Positions 1-63,894 of a DNA stretch of 64,000 nucleotides are shown piece after piece. The stretch lies in contig NVUW01000007.1 in NCBI GenBank assembly GCA_002733205.1, forward strand, positions 1 to 64,000, in the 5' to 3' direction. How positions within the stretch are numbered: position 1 is the first letter of the stretch; each line of letters begins with the position of its first letter. The notes under the pieces are model-generated. The model was not told the origin of the DNA, ran no database searches, and saw only the letters and a list, made by a program, of their open reading frames with translations. This stretch comes from Thalassobium sp. GTDB taxonomy: Bacteria; Pseudomonadota; Gammaproteobacteria; Pseudomonadales; Oceanobacteraceae. The translations under genes were made by a program, and so were the position numbers.

Positions 1-1
1 G

Positions 2-226
2 GAAAGCGGAATCATGCTGTACTCGGGGCCGGTGCACGTAAAAGAGATATTTGGTGACGACTATCCTAAAGTGTTGAAGGCCGTGTTGCTTATTGGCGAT
101 GACATGGCTGGCTATTCCATCGGTTACCGACAGACCGAGCGGGGTTGGCAATTTGTTGGTTTCGAGAGTGCCGTCGGCGACTTAGAAATAATCGAAGAAG
201 GGCTGCGTGCATACCTCAAAAGTTAA
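2..226 (+). CDS. 3' end of a small hypothetical protein, SMI1/KNR4-like (cut by window edge)
   Basis: The reading frame stays open to the left edge, so the ATG at 14 need not be the start and this is probably the C-terminal part of a longer protein. The visible 74 residues are acidic. The pattern IGDDMAGYSIGY, then W-Q-F-V-G-F, then a C-terminal helix, resembles the end of SMI1/KNR4-fold proteins, which often act as immunity or accessory proteins. That match is from memory and is weak. The stop codon lies inside an attC-like site, so the gene is most likely an integron cassette gene. Confidence 0.5.
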   Translation, partial: ESGIMLYSGPVHVKEIFGDDYPKVLKAVLLIGDDMAGYSIGYRQTERGWQFVGFESAVGDLEIIEEGLRAYLKS

Positions 227-304
227 CAAGGCCAAGCACAGCGACAGCTTTTCCGTTGCGGCCTCGCCTTCACTACAAAGCTGCGCGTTTTGGCGGCATT
301 AGTT
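221..304 (+). repeat. attC-like recombination site (integron cassette junction)
   Basis: The site starts with AGTTAAC at 221-227, one mismatch from the RYYYAAC core, overlapping the stop of the upstream gene. It ends with a degenerate right core around 298-304 (ATTAGTT, two mismatches from GTTRRRY). The arms GGCCAAGCACAGC and GCTGCGCGTTTTGGC are imperfect inverted repeats around a roughly 40-base centre. Position between two small genes on the same strand fits a cassette junction. The weak right core suggests decay. Confidence 0.6.
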
Positions 305-326
305 TTTTCAGGTCAAATCAATAAAA

Positions 327-1115
327 ATGCAGTTGGTCGATAAAATGAAAAATAAAAATGGTTATATAGGAGTCAATGATTCGGAGATTTATTACGAACT
401 TTCCGGCAATCCAGAGGGTGAACCATTATTGATGCTTCATGGCGGCCTTGGTTCGCTGAATGAGCTAAGTCCCATTCACAAATATGTAGCTGCGGACTAT
501 CAGTTGATAAGCATAGATTTTCGTGGTCACGGAAAATCACTCTTAGGCGATCGCCGACTTAATTACATGCAATATCAACAAGATGTCCAGCATGTCCTTA
601 GTTATTTGGGTGTTGAGAAATACTCAATTTTTGGTTTCAGTGACGGCGGCATCGTGGGGTATCGGTTAGCAGCACAAGATCCAGAAAGAGTGTCTTGTTT
701 GGTTACACTGGGTTCGCAGTGGCGATTAGAAGCAGATGATCCATCAATTGAATTGCTAAGTGGTTTGACGGCCGAATTTTGGGCATCAAGGTTTGAAGAT
801 GATGTTGCATTTTATGAAGCATCAAATCCTAAACCAGATTTTCCTAAGCTTGTAGAAATGGTGAAAGCAGTTTGGCTTGATACAACAGAATCTGGCTATC
901 CAAATAAGTTAGTTGAAGAAATCCGTTGTCCAACGTTGGTAATGCGAGGTGATAATGACTTCTTATTTTCGTTGGATGAGGCAGTAGCTTTAAAATCGAA
1001 AATTGCAGGTTGTAGTTTTGCCAATATTCCATTGACAGCACATTCATCCCATCAAGAATCACCAGGACTAGTGGGTGAAATGCTAAAACAGTACATGTCG
1101 CAGCACAAAAACTAA
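327..1115 (+). CDS. alpha/beta-fold hydrolase (gene cassette)
   Basis: The 262-residue protein has the alpha/beta-hydrolase pattern: oxyanion motif LMLHGGLGS near residue 40, nucleophile elbow GFSDGG near residue 105, an acid in MRGDNDF near residue 208, and a late histidine in TAHSSH near residue 240. It is probably a cytosolic esterase or lipase-like enzyme; the substrate cannot be read from sequence. There is no clear ribosome binding site; an in-frame ATG at 345 is an alternative start. The gene is visibly more AT-rich than the core genes. It lies between two attC-like sites, so it is probably a captured integron cassette. Confidence 0.85.
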   Translation: MQLVDKMKNKNGYIGVNDSEIYYELSGNPEGEPLLMLHGGLGSLNELSPIHKYVAADYQLISIDFRGHGKSLLGDRRLNYMQYQQDVQHVLSYLGVEKYSIFGFSDGGIVGYRLAAQDPERVSCLVTLGSQWRLEADDPSIELLSGLTAEFWASRFEDDVAFYEASNPKPDFPKLVEMVKAVWLDTTESGYPNKLVEEIRCPTLVMRGDNDFLFSLDEAVALKSKIAGCSFANIPLTAHSSHQESPGLVGEMLKQYMSQHKN

Positions 1116-1136
1116 CAAACGCCTCAAGAGGGACAG
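1109..1136 (+). repeat. 5' half of a VCR-like attC site, interrupted by an IS fragment
   Basis: Directly at the stop codon of the hydrolase, the sequence CTAACAAACGCCTCAAGAG, continuing GGGACAG, matches from memory the beginning of Vibrio-type attC sites (VCRs). The match ends at 1136, where an IS3-like terminus begins, so the right half of the site is displaced or lost. Confidence 0.65.
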
Positions 1137-1300
1137 TGATCTTCCCCCGCTTTAACGGACACCAAAGTCAAACTGACGAGGTGTCCAATGCCAAAATATA
1201 CTCAGCCAAGAAAGACCTGGCAGTATTCAAAAGAATTTAAAGTGAAAGCAGTTCTGCTAAGTCTGATTGAAGGGATTCAGGTTCAGGAAGTTGCCAATGT
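1137..1300 (+). mobile_element. IS3-family left-end fragment with truncated orfA
   Basis: The fragment starts TGATCTTCCCCC and carries the inverted pair GGACACC/GGTGTCC at 1158-1186, as at the left end of many IS3-family elements. An ATG at 1188 opens a frame reading KTWQYSKEFKVKAVLL, then SLIEGIQVQEVA. This is the start of an IS3-type OrfA helix-turn-helix protein. Homology stops after about 38 codons; no orfB or right end follows. The right boundary near 1300 is approximate. The frame runs on by chance into the next gene. Confidence 0.65.
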
Positions 1301-1390
1301 TAACGAAAAGAACATTCCTCTTAGTGGTCGCCAGCAGGTTGTCTGCGGTGCTGCACCGAACTACGCTCGGCTGCGGCAAGCGTTATGTAT
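1301..1390 (+). repeat. possible right part of an attC site
   Basis: Between the IS fragment and the next gene there is a GC-rich, palindrome-bearing stretch (GCGGTGCTGCACCG near 1349-1362) ending in GGCAAGCGTTATG at 1376-1388. GCGTTATG is the usual right end of Vibrio-type attC sites. This may be the right half of the attC whose left half is at 1109-1136. The long-range pairing of the arms is poor, so the call is tentative. Confidence 0.35.
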
Positions 1391-1415
1391 CATAAGCAAT
1401 CGGAGGGCAGGATTT

Positions 1416-1907
1416 GTGTCAGATAAGCGTTTAAGTACGCGGATATCCGCTTACAAGGAGGTTTTAGCGAGTGGCGAGATTCAGAAAACCTATCAGGATC
1501 TGGTTGGTATTTTTCAAAGCCTCAGAACTGAATTCTCGAAAAGGTATCAGGGTGAATTTACGGTTGCTAATGTGCTGCATGGCTACTTAGATTTTACTTA
1601 CTTTTATCTGCAAAATGATTTTTTAAAAAAGCGTCAACTGAAGCTGGCCATTGTCCTCAATCATCGGCAGGCGCATTTCGAACTTTGGCTTCTCGGTCAA
1701 ACAAAAGATGTGCAGATTCGTTATTGGGAAATGCTTAAAGGCGTGAAGTGGGTAAATCCGGAAATAATGCCTGAATATTCTGTTTTTGACCTTGTATTGC
1801 TTGCTCATCCAGACTTTGATGACGCTAAACAGCTTTCTGAATCGGTGCACCGTGCATTCGGATTATTATGGCTGGAAATTTTTAACACGCTGAAGGCATC
1901 TGGTTAG
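1416..1907 (+). CDS. DUF7000-like protein (gene cassette)
   Basis: The open frame begins at 1188 but its first part is IS3 OrfA and attC sequence. A GTG at 1416, preceded by GGAGGG at 1402-1407, is the likely start and gives 163 residues. The core (YKEVLASGEIQKTYQ, then YLDFTYFYL, then LAIVLNHRQAHFELWL, then ending helices) resembles the DUF7000 family of small cytosolic proteins, recalled from memory. No function is known to me. The gene is AT-rich and follows an attC-like end, so it is probably a third cassette. Confidence 0.7.
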   Translation: MSDKRLSTRISAYKEVLASGEIQKTYQDLVGIFQSLRTEFSKRYQGEFTVANVLHGYLDFTYFYLQNDFLKKRQLKLAIVLNHRQAHFELWLLGQTKDVQIRYWEMLKGVKWVNPEIMPEYSVFDLVLLAHPDFDDAKQLSESVHRAFGLLWLEIFNTLKASG

Positions 1908-1922
1908 AGTTATATGTAATCT

Positions 1923-2270
1923 TTACCTGCCACTTTCCCTGATCTGCTTCTTACAAGCCGCACACAGCGGCAGCGCTCCCAGCTTGCGGCGGTAGTTTCC
2001 GGATGTCCAGTCATTTCCTATTTTTCTGTAGTCAAATTTATACGGCAGCTCACGTTCCGGGTTATTGAATGCCGGGTCGGATACGCTGATACCGCATTCT
2101 GTACACTGGCTGGCGGATTGCGAAAGTACTATCTGCGGCGGAATAAGCGGAATAAGCGGAATAAGCGGAATCAGCAGTAGCAGGGCAGCAAGAGGAATCT
2201 GAGGTGTTATCAGTACCCAGATAATCAGGCCGAGGGTGCCTGTTGCTGTCAGGAGACGGAAGGGTGTCAT
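1923..2270 (-). CDS. small membrane protein with C-terminal CxxC zinc-ribbon-like pairs
   Basis: I place the start at the ATG at 2270, because the longer frame (TTG at 2369) would run through the valS terminator. The 115-residue product has a hydrophobic segment (LGLIIWVLI), then a second one built of repeated Leu-Ile-Pro triplets from a 9-bp tandem repeat, then a polar tail with two cysteine pairs (CTEC and CAAC) typical of metal binding. No family is recognised. It lies directly downstream of valS on the same strand but behind a terminator. Confidence 0.55.
   Translation of the reverse strand: MTPFRLLTATGTLGLIIWVLITPQIPLAALLLLIPLIPLIPLIPPQIVLSQSASQCTECGISVSDPAFNNPERELPYKFDYRKIGNDWTSGNYRRKLGALPLCAACKKQIRESGR
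2141..2176 (-). repeat. 9-bp tandem repeat (about four copies)
   Basis: Three copies of GAATAAGCG followed by a variant GAATCAGC lie inside the small membrane protein gene. On the coding strand they encode Leu-Ile-Pro units. Because the unit is a multiple of three, slippage would lengthen or shorten the hydrophobic segment without a frameshift. Confidence 0.85.
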
Positions 2271-2347
2271 TATTCTATCCGGCGTGTGCTTAGATTTTTC
2301 ACTGGCGACGACTTGGATGTTACTGTATTTCTGGCCGACATAAATAA

Positions 2348-2382
2348 AAAAACCGCCGACTCTTATCAAGTGGGCGGTTTTT
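2348..2382 (-). terminator. intrinsic terminator of valS
   Basis: A 10-bp inverted repeat (AAAAACCGCC and GGCGGTTTTT) with a 15-base loop lies 24 bases past the valS stop. On the minus strand the right arm is followed by a run of T. Confidence 0.85.
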
Positions 2383-10606: not shown

Positions 10607-11095
10607 ATGAATGTTGAGTTTATTAATCCGTTTGTAGAAACAATCAATAACATTCTGGCCACCATGGCCTCCATGAGTTGCGAATACGGTAAGCCCTACC
10701 TGAAAGAGGGTAACCGGCCGCTGGGGGTGGTCACCGGTATTATTCCGATGTCAGGCGACAGCGTGAAAGGCTCGCTGGCGATCAGCTTTTCGGCCGGAGC
10801 CATCATCAAAATCAGCAGCAGCATGCTGGGTGAAGCCATCGACGAGGTGGATGAAACCTGCCATGACCTGACCGGCGAGCTGACCAATATGCTGTCCGGT
10901 GGTGCGCGTAAGCTGCTGTGGGAAAAAGGCTACGATTTTGAAATGGCCAAACCCGGTGTCCTCACCGGCGAGATGGATATTCCCCATGAAGCCGCCGGCC
11001 CGGTATTGGTGATTCCGTTTGAGACCAGCGCTGGGCCATTTTTTATTGAGGTGGTTCTGTCTTCCCGTTTGCAGCGGGCCGCGTTAAACGCTTGA
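10607..11095 (+). CDS. cheX: chemotaxis protein CheX-like (CheC/CheX phosphatase fold)
   Basis: CheX-type proteins dephosphorylate CheY-P. The 162-residue protein starts MNVEFINPFVETINNI, the common CheX beginning, and includes DETCHDLTGELTNMLSGGAR, matching the E-x3-N active-site helix of the family. The ATG at 10607 has AGAGGTGA upstream with good spacing; GTG 10595 is in frame but lies on that site. No other chemotaxis core genes are near, so it may act on a stand-alone CheY-like receiver elsewhere. Confidence 0.88.
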   Translation: MNVEFINPFVETINNILATMASMSCEYGKPYLKEGNRPLGVVTGIIPMSGDSVKGSLAISFSAGAIIKISSSMLGEAIDEVDETCHDLTGELTNMLSGGARKLLWEKGYDFEMAKPGVLTGEMDIPHEAAGPVLVIPFETSAGPFFIEVVLSSRLQRAALNA

Positions 11096-55307: not shown

Positions 55308-55889
55308 CTAAATACTGACCAGACCGGTAAAGCCTAAGAACGCCAGCGACATTAATCCGGCAGTGAGCATAGCGATGGCCGAGCCCTGAAAAGGCTTGGG
55401 TACGTCGGCGACCGCCACACGTTCACGCAGGGCGGCGAACAGTACCATCACCAGCGAGAAACCCACGGCGGCACCAAAGCCATAAAGAATGGATTCGACC
55501 AGGCTGTTGTCGCGCTTGATATTCAGCAGGGCTACACCCAGTACCGCGCAGTTGGTGGTGATCAGCGGTAAGAAGATACCCAGCACGCGGTACAGCAGCG
55601 GGCTGGTTTTGCGGATGGCCATCTCGGTAAAGCCCACCACCACGGCAATCACCATGATAAAACTGATGGTTTTCAGATAGGCCAGATCCAGCGGAATCAG
55701 CAAGTAGGTGTACACCAGATAGCTGCACACCGACGCCAGCGTCAGCACGAAGGTGGTAGCCGCGCCCATGCCGATGGCGGTTTCCAGCTTGTTGGATACA
55801 CCCATAAAAGGGCAGAGACCGAGGAATTGCACCAGCACGAAGTTGTTGACCAGAATGGTGCTTACCAGAATCAGCAGATAGTCAGTCAT
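55308..55889 (-). CDS. rnfA: Rnf electron-transport complex subunit A
   Basis: The 193-residue protein, from ATG 55889 (GGAG upstream), has six helices and the family blocks [20 protein letters not shown] and [18 protein letters not shown]. It is paralogous to RnfE. As first gene it marks the operon promoter in the 55890-56000 stretch. The gene order rnfABCDGE is complete; nth does not follow. Confidence 0.97.
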
Positions 55890-56787
55890 CAATGGCTCCG
55901 CAGCACATGTGTACCGTCGATATTAAAAAATGGGCGCGCATTATCCCAAAACTGTGTTATTTCGGACAAGAAGGTTTTTTTCGATTCTAAGCACCGTTTG
56001 GAATAAGCTTAGTGGTTGTTACGTCTATGGCTTGTAACGGCCGCCTTATTGGCATGCCAGCAGGGGATGATAGCGGTCTGCAGAGAGACGGTACTGATGC
56101 GGGTCAAGGATATAACCGGATGGTTATTTTGAGGCAGAAGGCAGGAGCGGATCTTATCCGCGATAAAATCAGGAAACTCAACTCACCCGGCAAGCACTCT
56201 GTGGGAGTGGCTTTCAGCCGCGATATCTGCAATGGAGGTTGTATTCGACTATCCGCGACCCCGCATACTAAATCAGGTGGAATTTACAGGAGCGGATCTT
56301 ATCCGCGACAAAACCAGAAGACTCATCTCACCCGGCAAGCACAGTGTGGGAGTGGCTTTCAGCCGCGATATCTGCAATGGATGTTGTATTCGACTGCCTG
56401 CAACCCCGCATATTAAATCAGGTGACGTTCGTAGGAGCGGATCTTATCCGCGACAAAATCAGAAGATTCAATTTACCTGGCAAGCACAGTGTGGGAGCGG
56501 CTTTCAGCCGCGATATTTGCACGCTTTGCATTCGTGCTTGCCCGTTTTGCCAGAGGGTAGTAACGTAAATGCCAAATGAATCAATAGATTGCGCTTCGGT
56601 TTACAAGCTGGAGTGTAAAGTTGGCTGCACAGAAAGCTGGAATTAACAGGCGTGCGCGTTTTTCTGGAAGGGATTTTTGAGTTATGGACGATTTCTCAGC
56701 TTGGTCAATAAGTTATGCGGGGTTTCTCGAAGGAGTTGCCCGGAATGAATGCGCACGCGCACTAATAAGCTGTTAAATTTCACCAAG
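55890..56787. other. gene-poor region with REP array upstream of rnfA
   Basis: No supported gene over about 900 bp. It contains the rnf promoter side (55890-56000), the 145-bp tandem repeat array (56143-56524) and a short frame (ATG 56684, 30 codons) without a recognisable product. Long frames through the array on the plus strand are made of repeat sequence. Confidence 0.5.
56143..56524 (+). repeat. tandem array of a 145-bp unit built of two REP-like palindromes
   Basis: AGGAGCGGATCTTATCCGCG occurs at 56143, 56288 and 56433, and GTGGGAGYGGCTTTCAGCCG at 56201, 56346 and 56491, each exactly 145 bp apart. Both are Pseudomonas-type REP palindromes (GGAGCGG...CCGCG). The intervening DNA (CACCCGGCAAGCAC, then ATATCTGCAATGGA) is also repeated. 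The third unit breaks off at about 56525. Confidence 0.95.
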
Positions 56788-57099
56788 ATGAAAGAAATAT
56801 ACCTTGAGCAAGCAAAGGATGAAGATTTAGCCAAGCTAGTTGGGAAGAAGATCTCTTGTATCAAAACAGATGGTAATAACTCTTCTTTAACCGATGAAGG
56901 TCTAAAATTCATTCCTGAAATAATCGGGCTAAGTGAACTTGATCTTGAATGGGCAACACAAATAACTGATAAAGGCATTGAGGCTCTGGCAGATGCTACA
57001 TCGCTCACCTATATAGATTTGTCCTTTTGTAGCAATATCTCAGAGGGTGCAATATCTAAAATTAAGGCAGCAATCAGTGGAATTACAATCGAGCGCTAA
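56788..57099 (+). CDS. leucine-rich-repeat-like small protein (gene cassette)
   Basis: The 103-residue protein has two LRR-like units: LTDEGLKFIPEIIGLSELDL and ITDKGIEALADATSLTYIDL, the second followed by SFCSNISEGAISKIK. It is probably cytosolic. ATG 56788 is chosen; an in-frame ATG-like start at 56749 is weaker, and neither has a ribosome binding site. It is AT-rich. An attC follows 3 bp after the stop, so it is an integron cassette gene. Confidence 0.75.
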   Translation: MKEIYLEQAKDEDLAKLVGKKISCIKTDGNNSSLTDEGLKFIPEIIGLSELDLEWATQITDKGIEALADATSLTYIDLSFCSNISEGAISKIKAAISGITIER

Positions 57100-57101
57100 A
57101 A

Positions 57102-57176
57102 ATTTAACAAGACCAGCCAGAGGGGCCAAAAACCAGAGCGAAGCGACGGTTTTTGGCCCCTCTGGCTGCGTTATGT
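57102..57176 (+). repeat. attC site with a perfect 20-bp stem
   Basis: ATTTAAC (57102-57108) is an exact RYYYAAC core; GTTATGT (57170-57176) is one mismatch from GTTRRRY. The arms 57115-57134 (AGCCAGAGGGGCCAAAAACC) and 57148-57167 are perfectly complementary, with a 13-base centre. Size (75 bp) and layout match integron attC sites. Confidence 0.85.
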
Positions 57177-57180
57177 GTAA

Positions 57181-57567
57181 GTGAGTATGAGCATGGAGTG
57201 GTCTCAAATCGAAATATTCAAAGGTATTGATCTCAATGATTCATTTGTTCTGAATTGGCATCACGAGAATGATCATTTGTCTTTCGAGTTAGAGGCAAGC
57301 ATCTGGCCCGAGTCAGAGCATTACACTGCCTCCAAGAACTATGAGTATACATGTTACCGGAAAGCGACTCTTGAATTTGTGGGCGTAAAGAATATAAGTG
57401 GCTTAAAATCAAAAGAGTCCGTCCAGTCAACCACAGATCCAGATGGCTCTATTGACTACGGAAACATTGATGACCTTAAGGAGCTAGGTGATTCATTTCT
57501 TGTAGTAGGTGATTTTGGATCGGTCTCAATCCAAGGCGGAGAGCTCCGATTTGAAATCCACACATAA
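57181..57567 (+). CDS. hypothetical protein (gene cassette)
   Basis: The 128-residue acidic protein contains VLNWHHENDHLSFELEASIW, LEFVGVKNISGL and, near the end, SFLVVGDFGSVSIQGGELRF, an overall beta-rich pattern. GTG 57181, ATG 57187 and ATG 57193 are possible starts. It begins right after the attC right core, as a second cassette should. No attC is recognisable after its stop, so the array is broken there. No family is recognised. Confidence 0.72.
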   Translation: MSMSMEWSQIEIFKGIDLNDSFVLNWHHENDHLSFELEASIWPESEHYTASKNYEYTCYRKATLEFVGVKNISGLKSKESVQSTTDPDGSIDYGNIDDLKELGDSFLVVGDFGSVSIQGGELRFEIHT

Positions 57568-57677
57568 AATGAATTAGTTTATGAACGCTACTGCGGGGCT
57601 GGGGTAGTTGAAATTCGTTCGTTCCTCGCTATGTTTCGCCGCTCCACAACAAAGCATCATAGTTCTTAGAATATACA

Positions 57678-57747
57678 AGGACGCCTGTGCTGATAATGCG
57701 CCTGATCTCCGTTATGCAGTCTGCAACAGAGTCTGTAGTGGTGGCCT
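57678..57747 (-). pseudogene. degenerate fragment of the zinc-ribbon gene at 60908-61417
   Basis: The plus-strand sequence here (CTCCGTTATGCAGTCTGCA and flanks) is about four-fifths similar to 61237-61300. On the minus strand both read RLC-x-RLHNG-x-QA, but the copy here has lost several cysteines (Tyr and His in their place) and has no complete frame. Confidence 0.6.
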
Positions 57748-57766
57748 TTATGGTGAGAGTGCATAT

Positions 57767-58093
57767 ATGCAGAAATATGTTGTTTTTACATGCGTCAGAT
57801 GTAAGAAATCACTTGGAAAGTTGACGCCAAAAGGAATCTTTCAGATTTTGGATAGTAGGGGGATGGTCTACAAATGTTGCAACTGCGGACGTAGATATCA
57901 GACGACTGCATTCGCCTTTTTTATTCATCTGGCTGTCGCTGGTAGTCTTTTGATTTCAGGATTGATTTTTTCGGGATATTGTTCGGGGTCTTTGTATATA
58001 TCATTGCTGGTATTTGCATTGTTCTTGATTTACTACGCTGCTTTTATGCCTTTGAAGCCTGTTGTATTAAAAATGAACAATGATATTAAGTGA
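57767..58093 (+). CDS. zinc-ribbon two-helix membrane protein, copy 1
   Basis: The 108-residue protein, from ATG 57767, has CVRC at residues 10-13 and CCNC (residues 38-41), a zinc-ribbon pattern, then two membrane helices (FFIHLAVAGSLLISGLIFSG and LYISLLVFALFLIYYAAF) and a cytosolic tail PLKPVVLKMNN. The same protein is encoded at 59587-59913 with four residue differences or so. A longer frame starts at 57608 but the upstream part is not shared. No named family; small membrane proteins of this kind are frequent as immunity proteins (inference). Confidence 0.82.
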   Translation: MQKYVVFTCVRCKKSLGKLTPKGIFQILDSRGMVYKCCNCGRRYQTTAFAFFIHLAVAGSLLISGLIFSGYCSGSLYISLLVFALFLIYYAAFMPLKPVVLKMNNDIK

Positions 58094-58205
58094 GTCGCCT
58101 GCGCATTGTAAGCTTTTCAGATGAAGTTAAGACTGTGTGTGGATGAGTGTTGACGTGGGTAGCTTATGTCATATGCCGGGTTTGAACTATATTTCGAGAG
58201 TCCGG
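57767..58205 (+). repeat. duplicated segment, copy 1
   Basis: From the start codon of the zinc-ribbon gene to about 110 bp past its stop, the sequence is nearly identical to 59587-60025 (offset 1820 bp), then diverges gradually. The left edge is sharp at the ATG. Confidence 0.9.
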
Positions 58206-58307
58206 GTAGTGTGGAACGATGCAGTAAATAAATAGGCCCCCATCTTGGTGGTTGCTTATCTGAAATGAGTAATCAGACCTTTTGAATAAGATTGTTAAGG
58301 AACGAGA

Positions 58308-58617
58308 ATGCCGATAAATATAGATGTCTTGTTGTCTATTTTGGTTGGTGGATTATATGGTTCTATATTCTCTTTTGTGCTTGTCCCACTGTATTCTTGG
58401 GCGCTAAGCAAGAAGGATAGTATTCGAATTTCAGTTATCTTGTTTGTTTCATTTTTGGGGCCATTGTTTATGATTTTACACAAGAAAACAGTTATTTTTT
58501 GGTCTGGAAGAAACTGAGAATTTTAGCGGATTGGTGTTTGCGATTGTATGTATTTTGGTTTTTATTATATATGGGATGAAACTGAAAATATTTTCCCGAA
58601 AACCGGGAAAATATTAA
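58308..58617 (+). pseudogene. small multi-helix membrane protein, probably frameshifted
   Basis: ATG 58308, with AAGGA upstream, opens a 69-residue frame with two helices (LLSILVGGLYGSIFSFVLV and RISVILFVSFLGPLFMIL), ending at 58517. After a six-T run at 58495-58500 the next frame continues with FGLEETENFSGLVFAIVCIL and a further helix up to 58617. One T fewer would join them into about 103 residues with four helices. Whether this is a real frameshift, programmed slippage or a sequencing error is open. Confidence 0.55.
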
Positions 58618-59000
58618 ATTATCTAAGGGGTACCTATGATGTATTCAGTGTTTGCCTCGGTTTGCTGAAAAGTTCAGGTCAAGATGCCAATTTAAAGGAT
58701 GCTGTGGGAGTTGTACTGTCTGCTGCTGTCGGGACTTATCTAGATGGTGGTAGCTATGTCGATGCTGCAAAAGCTGCTTCAATATCATTTCTCGCGAATA
58801 CTTTCGGAGGGAAGGTAGGTACGAATATTCAGCGGAGAATTGGTCAAGGGATTGATGCCCCTGCAAAGATTCTACATGAGGTTGCGTCATCATTGTCGGC
58901 AGCACAGAAAGTACTCTTAGCGCAAATTCTGTCCTCTGCTTTAAATATCACTGTAGAAGAAGCTGAGAGAATATTGAATGAGGTTTTGAATGGCTGTTAA
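58548..59000 (+). CDS. hypothetical protein, possible C-terminal remnant of a polymorphic toxin-like protein
   Basis: The 150-residue frame has no ribosome binding site at ATG 58548, which overlaps the previous frame. The useful part, from about residue 28, contains DAVGVVLSAAVGTYLDGGSY and AAKAASISFLANTFGGKVG, an Ala/Gly-rich helical region, then a helical tail (LSAAQKVLLAQILSSALNIT). It looks like the end of a larger protein whose N-terminus is gone. No catalytic motif is visible, so toxin origin is only a guess. The next gene starts 11 bp before its stop. Confidence 0.55.
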   Translation: MYFGFYYIWDETENIFPKTGKILNYLRGTYDVFSVCLGLLKSSGQDANLKDAVGVVLSAAVGTYLDGGSYVDAAKAASISFLANTFGGKVGTNIQRRIGQGIDAPAKILHEVASSLSAAQKVLLAQILSSALNITVEEAERILNEVLNGC

Positions 59001-59352
59001 TAAAAAAGTGGTTGTATTTCATTGTGCTCGATGTGGTAGTTCAATGAAACGTTTATACCTGACTAATGCATTTGGTGCGCTTGGGTACATAGGTGGACGT
59101 TTCAAATGTCCTTGCTGCGGACTGCTGTATTCGTCGTCTGGTTGGGTGGGTGGGGTTTACAGCTTGGTTTTTTATTTGTTAGCAGCTTTTTGCTTTTTAG
59201 GTATTGCCTTTTTCGGGGGGGATGAAAAATTTGATCTTTTAGGTGTGGGAATATTTCTTTCAATGACTCTTATGTTTTTATATATGTATGGAGCGTTTCG
59301 GCCTTTAACTCCTGTTTTGCATAAATTTAAATCACCAAATGGTCGGGATTAA
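58990..59352 (+). CDS. zinc-ribbon two-helix membrane protein, divergent paralog
   Basis: The 120-residue protein overlaps the upstream frame by 11 bp (translational coupling). It has the same plan as the 57767 and 59587 proteins: KVVVFHCARCG, then FKCPCCGLLY, two helices (YSLVFYLLAAFCFLGIAFF and LLGVGIFLSMTLMFLYMY) and the tail AFRPLTPVLHKF, compared with AFMPLKPVVLKM. It is therefore a diverged member of the same family. Confidence 0.8.
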   Translation: MAVNKKVVVFHCARCGSSMKRLYLTNAFGALGYIGGRFKCPCCGLLYSSSGWVGGVYSLVFYLLAAFCFLGIAFFGGDEKFDLLGVGIFLSMTLMFLYMYGAFRPLTPVLHKFKSPNGRD

Positions 59353-59586
59353 CAGGAGTCTGCTTGCTGGTGCATCTCTGAATAATCAGTGCTCACTTCG
59401 GTTTGCTTTATGTGTTCAGATAAAAACGCTATGCTTAAGGTATAAAAGGTTGCGTTAAATAGTGTCAATAAAGTTGTTTTTCAGGAAGTCCGGCAAGGCG
59501 TCGACTCAATACCAATGGTATAAATTATGAAGGAGTCATGATCTATATAGAATACAATGGTTGTTGATTATAATGAGGGCGTGTGT

Positions 59587-59913
59587 ATGCAGAAATATGT
59601 TGTTTTTACATGTGTCAGATGTAAGAAATCACTTGGAAAGTTGACGCCAAAAGGAATCTTTCATATTTTGGATAGTAGGGGGATGGTCTACAAATGTTGC
59701 AACTGCGGACGTAGATATCAGACGACTGCATTCACCTTTTTTATTCATCTGGCTGTCGCTGGTAGTCTTTTGATTTCAGGATTGATTTTTTCGGGATATT
59801 GTTCGGGGTCTTTGTATATATCATTGCTGGTATTTGCATTATTCTTGATTTACTACGCTGCTTTTATGCCGTTGAAGCCTGTTGTATTAAAAATGAACAA
59901 TATTATTAAGTAA
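59587..59913 (+). CDS. zinc-ribbon two-helix membrane protein, copy 2
   Basis: The 108-residue product from ATG 59587 (GAGGGC upstream) is almost the same as that of 57767-58093: the visible residue changes are Q to H, A to T and D to I. CxxC pairs, two helices and the PLKPVV tail are all kept, so both copies may be functional. Confidence 0.82.
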   Translation: MQKYVVFTCVRCKKSLGKLTPKGIFHILDSRGMVYKCCNCGRRYQTTAFTFFIHLAVAGSLLISGLIFSGYCSGSLYISLLVFALFLIYYAAFMPLKPVVLKMNNIIK

Positions 59914-60025
59914 GTCGCCTGCGCATTGTAAGCTTTTCAGATGAAGTCAGGAGTGTGTGGTGGATGAGTGCTTAAGTAGGGGGCTGATGTCATATACCGG
60001 GTTTGAGCTATATTTCGAGTTGCCG
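59587..60025 (+). repeat. duplicated segment, copy 2
   Basis: This is the partner of 57767-58205. Homology extends past the gene into the start of the next frame (MSYTGFELYFE), which is intact here but ends early in copy 1 (MSYAGFELYFESPGSVERCS followed by a stop). Confidence 0.9.
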
Positions 60026-60148
60026 AGTAGAGTGAAACGACGCTATCTTGAACAAACAGGTCAGTCTGGTTTTGATTTGGCAGAGTCTATAGGTGGGAAG
60101 AAAACTCGCAGTCCGCAGCTTCCTAAAACGGTACCATTTTGTGATTGA
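59987..60148 (+). CDS. small hypothetical protein, probably a remnant
   Basis: ATG 59987, with AGGGGG upstream, gives 53 residues: MSYTGFELYFELPSRVKRRY, then LEQTGQSGFDLAESIGG and a short tail. The first 14 residues are duplicated in truncated form at about 58168-58232. The 3' end overlaps the next frame by 56 bp. It may be the N-terminal remainder of a larger gene. No family is recognised. Confidence 0.4.
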   Translation: MSYTGFELYFELPSRVKRRYLEQTGQSGFDLAESIGGKKTRSPQLPKTVPFCD

Positions 60149-60626
60149 GAATAAAGTGCTTAGAGTTGTATGTCGTTCAGTTCTGATTATTGCGGCTCTT
60201 TGGCTGGTTTACGTTGTGTGGAAAGCTATTGTGTCATCGCCTTATTACCATCTCTTTGAACGGCGCTTTGATGGTGGTGAACATTATAATCTGAAAACTG
60301 ATTGCAGTGGCTTTGGTGTTTTTAATCATTTGGTCTCCACGGATAATGATCAATTTCTGATTTCGTATGTCTCAAATGAACATTTGAGATGGTTTTCGTT
60401 AGTGAAGCGAGACTCCATTGATGATGAGGTGATTTACATTCAGCCAGAAAAGTATCCGGATTTTTTATTAATTGAGAGAGCGGGGTTTGATTCTGGTATG
60501 TTGGTTTTTCTTTATTCTCAAAAGTATGGGGTTTTAATTGGTGTGGATAAATACCAGCTGGAAGATGATTTTTTCCAGAACTTTATGCGAAGTTACGGTT
60601 GCTGTTTGAAGGAAAGTTTCAAGTAA
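60093..60626 (+). CDS. single-helix membrane protein of unknown function
   Basis: The 177-residue frame starts at GTG 60093; GTG 60141 is an alternative. One membrane helix (VCRSVLIIAALWLVYVVWKA, about residues 27-46) is followed by a 130-residue domain with FERRFDGGEHYNLKTDCSGF, FLISYVSNEHLRWFSLVKRD and YGVLIGVDKYQLEDDFFQNF, a beta-rich soluble domain probably outside the membrane. AT-rich. No family is recognised; an immunity-type role is possible from context. Confidence 0.7.
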   Translation: MGRKLAVRSFLKRYHFVIENKVLRVVCRSVLIIAALWLVYVVWKAIVSSPYYHLFERRFDGGEHYNLKTDCSGFGVFNHLVSTDNDQFLISYVSNEHLRWFSLVKRDSIDDEVIYIQPEKYPDFLLIERAGFDSGMLVFLYSQKYGVLIGVDKYQLEDDFFQNFMRSYGCCLKESFK

Positions 60627-60692
60627 GGTTCGGTGATGGATTGAAAAGGTAGCTGAACTAAAATGTGTCCAATAAACTGAAGTGGGTGGTGT

Positions 60693-61082
60693 GTGAAACG
60701 TACTGTTTTTAACCGGATTTTAGTTCTGGCTATGCTGATATACAGTGTTTTTGTGTTCTTGCCATATTTTTATGGTTCGTTGTATTCTGAGGAAGAGCTG
60801 AACTTTCTGTTTTACATGCCAGTCAAGCCATTGTTTGAAATCCCTTACTGGTTTGGCTGGATCATATATGCGCTGTCGATGTTTTGTTATCTGAGTATCT
60901 ACTTTGGCTATACAATAGTTCGGTATCTGTATGTCGCGGTTCTGTTTTTTAATGTGCTGTTTAGTATTCTGTCTGGAGTGGCGGCGTACACAGGGTTTGA
61001 AATCTCTGTAATCGTAATTCTCTCAACGATTGATGGCATTGTTCTGAGTTTTTTGTTTTTGAATAAACAAAATTCTGGTTGA
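60693..61082 (+). CDS. four-helix membrane protein of unknown function
   Basis: The 129-residue protein from GTG 60693 has four hydrophobic segments (ILVLAMLIYSVFVFLPYF, WFGWIIYALSMFCYLSIYF, LYVAVLFFNVLFSILSGVAA, VIVILSTIDGIVLSFLFL) and hardly any soluble part. It is AT-rich like its neighbours. No family is recognised. Its 3' half is overlapped by a minus-strand zinc-ribbon frame. Confidence 0.72.
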   Translation: MKRTVFNRILVLAMLIYSVFVFLPYFYGSLYSEEELNFLFYMPVKPLFEIPYWFGWIIYALSMFCYLSIYFGYTIVRYLYVAVLFFNVLFSILSGVAAYTGFEISVIVILSTIDGIVLSFLFLNKQNSG

Positions 61083-61417
61083 TTACTTGGCTGCGTGAGG
61101 GCCTTGTTGGTTATCGTGTTACTTGATTTCGTACTGGCCGTTGTTTTGTGCTGCTGTTGACACGTGTCAGCTGGATTGCAGAATAACAGCAGGAATACAG
61201 CCATCTCATCCGGAGGATGGGCGTTAATCCGGCAATCCCTGCACTGATCAGGTGCCTGATTACCGTTATGCAGTCTGTAGCAGAGCCTGCAACGGGAGCC
61301 TGATTGCGCCTGCTGTTCAAAATATAACCACCAGAGCATCCGACACTGCGGACACTGACATATCCTGAATGAGGAAAGCTTGCACCGGCGGGAAATGTTG
61401 GCACACTCTGCTGTCAT
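60908..61417 (-). CDS. zinc-ribbon protein, minus strand (end uncertain)
   Basis: ATG 61417, with AGAGG 11 bp upstream, opens a frame whose first 75 residues hold cysteine pairs CQCPQC, CRLC and CRDC, as in a multi-zinc ribbon, followed by a hydrophobic stretch (MAVFLLLFC). The last 70 residues are antisense to the four-helix gene and may not be native. A decayed relative of the ribbon lies at 57678-57747, which supports that the first part is or was a gene. Confidence 0.45.
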   Translation of the reverse strand: MTAECANISRRCKLSSFRICQCPQCRMLWWLYFEQQAQSGSRCRLCYRLHNGNQAPDQCRDCRINAHPPDEMAVFLLLFCNPADTCQQQHKTTASTKSSNTITNKALTQPSNQPEFCLFKNKKLRTMPSIVERITITEISNPVYAATPDRILNSTLKNRTATYRYRTIV

Positions 61418-61569: not shown

Positions 61570-63894
61570 ATGAACACTGTTGTTTTGGGGAAGATGCGCT
61601 GCGGCGGGTTTACTGGTCGTCTGCAGACTGGTTTGAAAAAGTCTGGCTGGCTGAAGGCTGTAAGCGCAGTTACCGGGCGCTTTGGCGGCGCAGGGCTATG
61701 GCTGGCAGGCACGCTGTTGCTTGTGGGGTGCAGCGATCAGGCCTGGAATAATCCGCATCCGGAATCCGAAGCCAGTGCCAATATTCTCTATTCCAGTTTT
61801 TCAGAACGTCCCAAATTCCTTGATCCGGCCCGCTCTTACAGTGCCGATGAATCACGCTTTATTGACCAGATTTACGAGCCGCCTCTGGCTTACGACTACC
61901 TTAAACGTCCTTACGAGCTGATCCCCAATACCCTGACGGCGATGCCGGATATCCGTTACAGCGATGCCGATGGCAATGAGGTGGATGCCAACAGCGAAAA
62001 CATTGCCTTTTCTACCTACCATTTTCAGTTACAACCCGGAATTCGCTATCAGCCGCATCCGGCCTTTGCCCTGAATGAAAACGGTGAATCACGCTATCTG
62101 TTTGCCTCGGCCGCCGAATCAGAGCAATACCGCAGTCTCGACGATTTTACTGAGCAGGGCAGCCGTGAACTGGTGGCCGAAGATTATGTGTATCAGGTTA
62201 AACGCCTGGCCGACCCTAAACTGCTGTCGCCGGTACGTGCACTGCTCAGCGATTATATTGTCGGCATGACAGAGTTCAGCCAGATTGCGAGTGATACGCG
62301 TAAAGCACTGGAAGAAAAAGCAGGCAAGCAGGCCTGGCTGGATTTACGCGAGCTCAGTATGGCCGGTGTTGAAGCCCAGAGCCGTTACGATTTTACCATC
62401 CGCTTAAAAGGCAAATATCCGCAGTTTAAATACTGGCTGGCCTTTCACTTTTTTGCTCCCATCCCCTGGGAGGTCGATCGTTTTTACCATCAGCCTGGGC
62501 TGGCCGACCGTAATATTGTGCTGAACTGGCACCCGGTGGGCACCGGTCCATTTATGATGACGCGCAATAATCCCAACGAAGTCATTATTCTGGAAAAGAA
62601 CCCGAATTACCGCGCCGATTATTATCCTGCTGAAGGTTCGCCTGAGGATGTTGCAGCCGGTTTACTGGATGACGCCGGAAAGCAATTGCCATTACTGGAT
62701 AAAGTGGTTTACCGGTTGGAAAAAGAAGCCATTCCGCTGTGGACCAAGTTTATGCAGGGCTATTACGACCGCTCTGGTATTGCCAGTGACAGTTTTGATC
62801 AGGCGATCCGCGTCAGCAGCGATGGCATTGGCCTGAGCCCGGAAATGACGGCCAAAGGCGTAACGCTGGAAAAAGAAGTGGTGCTGGGCAGTTATTATCT
62901 TGCCTTTAATATGCTCGACCCAGTTGTCGGCGATAAAGGGGATGCCAAAAGCCGCGAACGTGCACGCAAGCTGCGTCAGGCAATCGCCATTGTTTACGAT
63001 CAGCAGGAAATGATTTCGATTTTTGCCAACGGCCGTGGCGAAGTCGCGATGAGCCCGATACCGCCGGGTATTTTCGGTTATCAGAGTGGCGAAGAGGGCA
63101 TTAACCCTTATGTGTTTGACTGGGTGGATGGCAAGCCACAGCGTAAATCGCTGGAAGAGGCCAAACGGTTATTGGCCGAAGCCGGTTACCCGGGCGGCCG
63201 CCATGCCAAAACCGGTGAGCCGCTGGTGCTGAATCTGGATACCCCGACCGGTGGCAGTGGCGGCAGCGCCATGCAGAACTGGATGATCAAACAATTTAAA
63301 AAGCTGAATATTCAGCTCAATATCCGTGGTACAGACTACAACCGCTTTAAAGAAAAAATGCAGACCGGTAATGCCCAGTTATTCCAGTGGGGCTGGCTGG
63401 CCGATTATCCGGATGCCGAAAACTTCCTGTTTTTACAGTACGGTAATAACGGTCAGGTGATCAGCGGTGGCAGTGGGGTAAATTCCACTAATTACAATAA
63501 TGCCGAATACAACCGTTTATTCGACCAGATGCAGCTGATGGAAGACTCACCGCAGCGCATGGAGATTATCCGCCGTATGATTGCCATTCTGCAGCGCGAT
63601 GCGGTGTGGGCATCCGGCTGGCATCCGCATTCCTATGTGCTGAATAATCATTGGGTACGTAATGTTAAGGCCCACGGCATCAGTAAAAGTGTGGTGAAGT
63701 ATTTTGCCGTGGATACTGAACAACGCAGCCAGGCACAGGCGGCCTGGAATGCTCCGGTGTTATGGCCCATTTTTGTCGTCGTTGGAATTCTGCTGATTGC
63801 GTTGCTGCCGGGTTATCGTGGCTTCCGCCGTCGCCAGCAGCGTCGTATTCAAACGGCGCTGACAAATACTACACCTGCAGAAAAGGAGGGCTGA
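61570..63894 (+). CDS. oligopeptide-type ABC transporter substrate-binding lipoprotein with C-terminal helix
   Basis: The 774-residue protein belongs to the family 5 (peptide/nickel) binding proteins: ILYSSFSERPKFLDPARSYS near the mature N-terminus, LNWHPVGTGPFMMTRNNPNE near residue 318, and FQWGWLADYPDAENFLFLQY near residue 605. A lipobox (LLLVGC, Cys54) follows a long basic leader; the true start may be downstream of ATG 61570. Unusually, the end has a membrane helix (LWPIFVVVGILLIALLPGY) and a basic tail RRRQQRRIQ. It precedes a permease gene by 1 bp. The substrate is probably a peptide. Confidence 0.93.
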   Translation: MNTVVLGKMRCGGFTGRLQTGLKKSGWLKAVSAVTGRFGGAGLWLAGTLLLVGCSDQAWNNPHPESEASANILYSSFSERPKFLDPARSYSADESRFIDQIYEPPLAYDYLKRPYELIPNTLTAMPDIRYSDADGNEVDANSENIAFSTYHFQLQPGIRYQPHPAFALNENGESRYLFASAAESEQYRSLDDFTEQGSRELVAEDYVYQVKRLADPKLLSPVRALLSDYIVGMTEFSQIASDTRKALEEKAGKQAWLDLRELSMAGVEAQSRYDFTIRLKGKYPQFKYWLAFHFFAPIPWEVDRFYHQPGLADRNIVLNWHPVGTGPFMMTRNNPNEVIILEKNPNYRADYYPAEGSPEDVAAGLLDDAGKQLPLLDKVVYRLEKEAIPLWTKFMQGYYDRSGIASDSFDQAIRVSSDGIGLSPEMTAKGVTLEKEVVLGSYYLAFNMLDPVVGDKGDAKSRERARKLRQAIAIVYDQQEMISIFANGRGEVAMSPIPPGIFGYQSGEEGINPYVFDWVDGKPQRKSLEEAKRLLAEAGYPGGRHAKTGEPLVLNLDTPTGGSGGSAMQNWMIKQFKKLNIQLNIRGTDYNRFKEKMQTGNAQLFQWGWLADYPDAENFLFLQYGNNGQVISGGSGVNSTNYNNAEYNRLFDQMQLMEDSPQRMEIIRRMIAILQRDAVWASGWHPHSYVLNNHWVRNVKAHGISKSVVKYFAVDTEQRSQAQAAWNAPVLWPIFVVVGILLIALLPGYRGFRRRQQRRIQTALTNTTPAEKEG

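Follow-up and report, generated by a model that had tools for sequence, protein, structure and literature searches.

The cassette locus around positions 56773-57656 of the window, that is, of the 64,000-nucleotide stretch of Thalassobium sp. DNA analysed here, is probably a node of a distributed integron in which one integrase serves many attI platforms devoid of intI. To judge from the sequences alone, the full integron lies elsewhere in this genome and the attI backbone without intI recurs at about a dozen other places; cassettes follow the attI copies in cassette orientation from the crossover, and their content is species-specific. In the mechanism that we propose, the integrase of the main locus would insert circular cassettes at the dispersed attI sites in trans (attI × attC), cassettes would be removed from the platforms by attC × attC recombination, and one integrase would in this way manage many short arrays. 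At the node in the window, it would have inserted a cassette that carries a leucine-rich-repeat (LRR) gene and is terminated by the attC at 57102-57176. As to the platform copies, integron segments were probably duplicated and their intI lost or truncated, which is the least certain step of the proposal.

The window attC and its cassettes

The attC (57102-57176, plus strand) consists of an R'' box (57102-57108), an L'' arm (57114-57134), a loop (57135-57147), an L' arm (57148-57168) and an R' box (57170-57176). An earlier note on this DNA had described an exact RYYYAAC core with two perfectly complementary 20-bp arms; the R'' box, ATTTAAC, is exact and the arms are 100% complementary, but they measure 21 nt each, 13 nt apart, and the R' box, GTTATGT, has one mismatch to GTTRRRY. 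The bottom strand folds into a hairpin. When both strands of the 64-kb window were scored for RYYYAAC...GTTRRRY boxes with complementary arms, the site reached 20 versus 9.4 for the runner-up. It received 20.9 bits (E 0.063 in 578 kb) from a first attC covariance model (R1) and was not reported by the retrained model R2 (E ≤ 3, 915 kb), probably because its stem is free of bulges. The uninterrupted helix is 22 bp long, whereas among 100 other attC sites it reaches 17 bp at most and is most often 7, and in this comparison no extrahelical bases were seen in its L arm, so that the remark in the earlier note that a fully paired stem is odd was well taken. The loop motif GCTTCGC is found on the top strand in 16 of 101 attC sites and in reverse in one, the window attC, whose arms may have been homogenised by hairpin template switching with inversion of the loop. 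Its spacer is asymmetric (5 versus 1 base). According to the portion of PMC2727003 available to us, an attC from which the extrahelical bases were deleted by mutagenesis still recombines with attI and loses part of its strand specificity, some of which can then still be provided by the unpaired spacer. Since an attC without extrahelical bases still recombines in that partly available report, these bases would be a lost rather than an essential feature here, and we regard the site as an atypical yet real attC. A further attC from this sequence family is present in an unannotated intergenic gap of Shewanella phage MZ568829.1 (L274, 1501-1556), with R boxes and with arms that are, by eye, imperfectly complementary; the exact pattern of the window stem had no match in viral contigs.

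The first gene cassette (56773-57170, plus strand) spans 398 bp from crossover to crossover. It is delimited in this way because the bases at its left junction, GTTAAATTT (56772-56780), match, as an exact reverse complement, AAATTTAAC (57100-57108) at the left end of the attC that it carries, as for a circle opened at G^TT. Its gene (56788-57099, plus strand) encodes a small leucine-rich-repeat protein of 103 aa, for which a longer reading of the same frame, from 56749, matched Pfam LRR_6 (E 7.6e-7); no PADLOC match was obtained for this protein, and no match in plasmids. The second cassette (57171-57656, plus strand), delimited by comparison of right junctions, carries a gene (57181-57567, plus strand) for a 128-aa protein of no family and without Pfam match. 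It ends in a decayed attC, whose R' box reads ATCATAG (57656-57662) versus GTTATAG in genomes G003 and G007 and which had no covariance-model match. The locus holds one intact and one decayed attC; three are present at the same locus in G003. Both neighbours of the intact site are as the earlier note had described them, and its view of an isolated cassette locus with a near-ideal attC was right.

The left neighbour of the platform is a gene (55308-55892, minus strand) that we take from its sequence to be rnfA, and the right neighbour is a solute-binding protein gene (SBP_bac_5; 61570-63894, plus strand); both are common to the sister genomes. The right flank of the platform (57657-57735) is conserved in Thalassolituus alkanivorans (locus L027, genome G001), in a Saccharospirillaceae MAG (locus L028, genome G007) and in G003. 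To its right, a 3.5-kb stretch (57735-61240) that is absent from L027, L028 and L159 is bracketed by 64-nt repeats (57684-57747 and 61238-61301; 77%) and contains a duplicated small ORF (300 nt, 96%). Three tandem 145-bp repeats with a REP-like palindrome, the copy number of which seems to vary among sister genomes, occupy 56142-56576, directly left of the attI unit.

The attI copy left of the cassettes and the same locus in relatives

Adjoining the first cassette on its left is a dispersed attI unit of type B without intI (56483-56775, plus strand; conserved core 56636-56775), the crossover G^TT falling between 56772 and 56773. The unit was matched by nhmmer over 56483-56775 with an E value of 4.3e-82, using a profile that includes the window copy, and it obtained 127.9 bits with attI profile R3. 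The 216 bases left of the junction form a dispersed repeat with four copies in this genome and up to nine in others, and of 38 listed matches, 35 terminate between query bases 208 and 231, around the junction at base 216. In G003, G004 and G005 a copy adjoins intI and there constitutes the intI-attI intergenic region, at the far end of which stands what we take to be a LexA-box-like palindrome. Thirty-four aligned copies have a common right half ending ...CACACTAATAAGCTGTTA, after which each continues into different sequence. The core of the window unit is 84-88% identical to the intI-adjacent attI of G003 and G004, and 50% identical to the main attI of its own genome; at least two attI types therefore occur with an integrase (A and B). 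A further dispersed type, C, is nearer to A. Going by these alignments, the left flank of the cassette is a second attI copy, one of about a dozen dispersed in this genome, and not an arbitrary secondary site; the insertion at secondary sites that the earlier note had considered is not supported in that form.

No IntI match was found left of the window unit, the only IntI over the cut-off in this genome being on contig C1, and no sigma-70 or Pc promoter was recognised within the unit. For many B-type copies, the starting point is the LexA-box-like sequence some 300 nt from the crossover, and others are shorter or longer; in G023, a genome from another genus, the left divergence points of the copies lie at -362, -379, -574, -1035 and beyond. 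No fixed left end, terminal repeat or target duplication could be established for the attI unit, and no clean empty site was found at the two loci examined.

Both L027 and L028 have their flanks in common with the window, the left one with rnfA and the right one with the solute-binding protein gene. Homology to the window breaks off at 56775 and is found again beyond the insert, and the first cassette of the window is missing from the site in both. In L028 the insert holds a DUF5677 gene beside a gene that was not assigned, and the covariance model detected an attC there; in L027 it holds a DUF2971 gene and a second gene whose HEAT match is below threshold, and here no attC was found by the covariance model and an attC-like site was seen by eye only. 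G003 carries a further cassette set at the same locus. On the evidence of these alignments, three relatives hold other cassettes at the same rnfA/SBP locus, starting from the same crossover. Conserved outer flanks, in some cases judged by the left flank only, identify 35 cross-genome pairs of dispersed loci; in 34 of them homology ends no more than 12 nt from the crossover, the pair L215/L226 being the sole one still sharing its first cassette; a sharp homology edge is likewise present in 138 of 141 same-genome copy pairs. The attI type itself differs between genomes at three loci (L156/L161 versus L207; L165/L171 versus L213; L170 versus L223), pointing to recombination between platforms or to insertions repeated at one place. 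Cassette genes at L005 (370-1380, 2406-4091 and 4078-4932) and L027 (8018-8905) matched the PADLOC candidate defence families PDC-S21, PDC-M01A, PDC-M01B and PDC-S31, and L165 contains two matches to the TwoAYGGAY RNA family above gathering score (2232-2358, plus strand; 10857-10964, minus strand).

A terminator or REP-like palindrome without any link to integrons could account for the long perfect stem, for the weak or absent attC-model score and for the presence of REP-like tandem repeats about 0.2-0.6 kb left of the cassette. A 121-base query, however, matched the site alone in the 4.15-Mb genome (on both strands, being palindromic), so that the site is not a REP copy; it has R'' and R' boxes, the start of the cassette complements R'', the insert is species-specific between conserved flanks, and the phage attC of the same family combines R boxes with imperfect arms. 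A terminator scan of the stem yielded two 5-6-pair matches inside it, on opposite strands, with 0.6 expected in shuffled sequences, and no T tract follows the stem. The ordinary terminator or REP copies against which the earlier note had guarded did not turn up, and we give this reading next to no weight. A cassette that had gone off target into a genomic attG site beside rnfA would suit an intergenic locus far from intI, and insertion at attG is reported for integron integrases (Loot et al. 2024, as cited in the available portions of PMC12444791 and PMC12901181). Yet 140-290 bp of the flank are homologous to attI, the flank is repeated in the genome, cassettes follow many of its copies, and exactly the same crossover is used in three relatives, all of which makes an attG event very improbable; random attG insertion was rejected once the left flank had proved to be attI. 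The splitting of one large array, also raised in the earlier note, was rejected because in relatives the main array stands apart from this site, which has cassettes of its own.

attI units, attC sites and integrases in the genus

With the core profile R3, at least 90 attI units were found in the nine genomes of the genus (at least 13, 16, 5, 16, 10, 10, 4, 10 and 6 in G000 to G008; at least 13 in this genome), although the weakest of them (about 19-25 bits) may include false ones and one in this genome (C2:129700) is doubtful. IntI proteins over the family cut-off number nine in the same genomes, with two in G004, none in G006 and one in each of the others; the integrase counts cover these nine genomes and, outside the genus, the fetched stretches. 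At least 127 attC sites were found in the nine genomes with R2. Among the matches listed, a unit precedes 111 of 127 attC sites within 16 kb on the same strand, and one attC has a unit on its downstream side alone; for the other 15, of which several are close to contig ends, there is no unit in that range. Seen from the units, an attC is present within 6 kb downstream on the same strand at 48 of the 90 listed, upstream at one and on the opposite strand at none. When R2 was run on the fetched loci, which cover 87 of the 90 units, 59 units had an attC within 6 kb downstream on the same strand and 160 of 162 attC sites were downstream of a unit; R2 was built from attC sites of these very loci, which favours its sensitivity and not the orientation. 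No attC was found by the model within 6 kb of 28 of the 87 units, including the window unit and L157 and L158 of this genome, and some of the platforms without attC may be dead. Under stricter filters, and among the matches listed, at least 38 of 44 genomes of the family, in eight of eight genera, carry an attI unit.

A single integron integrase passes the curated cut-off in this genome; it is encoded on contig C1, about 5 kb from the contig end, and is followed by cassettes with attC sites. The window corresponds to contig C4 from its base 1 and starts inside a cassette array, which then reaches valS. The arrays headed by intI in G003 and G001 terminate next to that same sequence. Because the C1 array, the window start and the G003 and G001 arrays agree, the sequence at 1-1430 (plus strand; attC at 224-301; right end approximate) is the end of the valS-linked main integron that lies away from intI, from which the assembly has cut it. 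What the earlier note had called the first relic, about 55 kb from the window attC, is thus the remote part of the main array, truncated by the contig end. A full valS stands at the far end of the main array, and a small ORF with the C-terminal arm of valyl-tRNA synthetase (E 1.4e-14) was noticed left of the main intI (L004 18289-18651). A sequence GATCTT..CCCCGCTTTAACGGACACC..., presumably an IS3-type element, interrupts cassettes or attC-like sequence in the window (about 1139-1230) and in L161, L207, L219, L222, L224 and L231.

Within 2.2 kb left of the junction, a full IntI was found at 8 of the 87 units and the first 41 or 28 residues of intI alone at two, while at 76 no trace of intI was detected with a single query, the IntI of this genome, which very diverged remnants could escape. 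In this count, a lone IntI match with an E value of 0.94 at L178 was taken as none, the genome's own IntI falls outside the fetched piece, and several loci near contig ends offer less than 2.2 kb of left flank. Further to the left, 27 units carry sequence homologous to the stretch just past the intI stop codon of five main integrons, including that of this genome (E 3.4e-10 to 2.4e-4); many platforms therefore look like integron backbone from which intI has been removed. That the module left of these 27 units might be an RNA gene was discarded, as it had no Rfam match at four loci and is homologous instead to sequence 3' of intI. In the L255 and L256 arrays of G023, fragments of the backbone left flank turn up again at the right end, about 4.6-4.9 kb to the right of the crossover, and these may hold a clue to how platforms are copied.

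Proposed cassette gain in trans and the place among known integrons

G023 is a single-contig complete genome with at least 10 attI units, in which attI differs from that of Oceanobacter (L033) at one base in 70. Seven of its units, one of them with a complete IntI, were compared. The attI regions of six are 98-99.7% identical to one another and that of L260 is 90-96% identical, and no relationship is seen among the seven in the 600 bases that follow the junction, bar one 80-base match. Three units (L258, L259 and L260) have a common intI truncation breakpoint and 1.3-1.9 kb of backbone at 95-98% identity, followed by different first cassettes. If these three are duplicates, their cassettes changed after intI had been broken and were thus exchanged by an integrase encoded elsewhere; gene conversion of the backbone could be the main alternative to recent duplication.

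The number of attC sites per unit also varies with attI type. In the three genomes with IntI-A, 2.29 attC sites per A/C-type unit were counted within 6 kb versus 0.71 per B-type unit (17 units of each; p by permutation 0.002 for limits of 4-6 kb, 0.006 for 2 kb and 0.03 for 1 kb), and in G003, which has IntI-B, the order is reversed, with 0.67 (6 A/C-type units) versus 1.25 (8 B-type units) within 6 kb, in a comparison that leaves out the main attI sites and L214 (at a contig start), includes some loci cut by contig ends, and treats units of orthologous loci as independent although they are not.

The platforms might instead be fossil integrons that were once complete, gained their cassettes with intI in cis and are now only decaying. 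The homology of the left sequence of 27 platforms to what lies just 3' of intI in five main integrons, the two units that keep the first 41 or 28 residues and the truncated intI of several G023 copies are all in keeping with such a history. Three G023 copies with the same intI breakpoint and different first cassettes speak against it, as do the dependence of attC number on the match between attI type and resident IntI, and the 76 of 87 units that have no intI trace on their left; we consider this history unlikely. Continued service of the platforms by a distant integrase is the reading that we prefer, and we hold at about even the wider proposition that one integrase runs a chromosome-wide attI network, that platforms multiply as non-autonomous elements which keep attI and shed intI, and that the type of the resident integrase decides which docks are in use.

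An integron is usually described as one attI beside intI, heading one array of which the first cassettes are expressed. The system described here resembles a sedentary chromosomal integron in its attI, cassettes, attC sites and TIGR02249-family IntI, and in that cassettes start at the attI crossover, and differs from it in having many attI platforms across the chromosome, nearly all without intI in cis. Like a CALIN, the window node has attC cassettes and no intI nearby; unlike a CALIN, it is headed by a recognisable attI copy, and with one intact and one decayed attC it falls below the usual CALIN threshold of two attC sites. It shares with attG insertion a cassette far from the main array, except that the target is here an attI copy and not a divergent genomic site. 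In Delta-attI cassettes of class 1 and 2 integrons, attI is likewise found outside its usual place, but there an attI piece replaces the attC of a cassette within an array, whereas here attI heads separate chromosomal loci. In the portions of the literature available to us, Delta-attI gene cassettes are shown to recombine (PMC12901181), CALINs are defined as arrays without intI and proposed to be degraded integrons (PMC9024848), and they are said to be mobilisable in trans and, in Xanthomonas, to occupy conserved chromosomal positions (PMC12444791). The available part of PMC9024848 also states that standard software does not detect attI outside class 1, so that dispersed attI sites could go unseen. 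No mention of attI at CALINs was found in the accessible portions of PMC9024848 and PMC12444791, no report of dispersed attI platforms in the partly accessible open-licence literature on integrons, multiple attI, CALIN and attG, and no open-licence paper on integrons in Thalassolituus.

With many attI sites and one integrase, we place the system within the integron/CALIN kind. If one integrase does serve many attI sites, many cassettes could stand in first position at once, in different chromosomal contexts. Arrays without intI would then not need to be dead, and would have a way to keep fixed positions while their genes turn over. The trans-acting activity of an integrase would become testable by genome comparison, and the integron of these bacteria would work through many loading docks instead of a single array.
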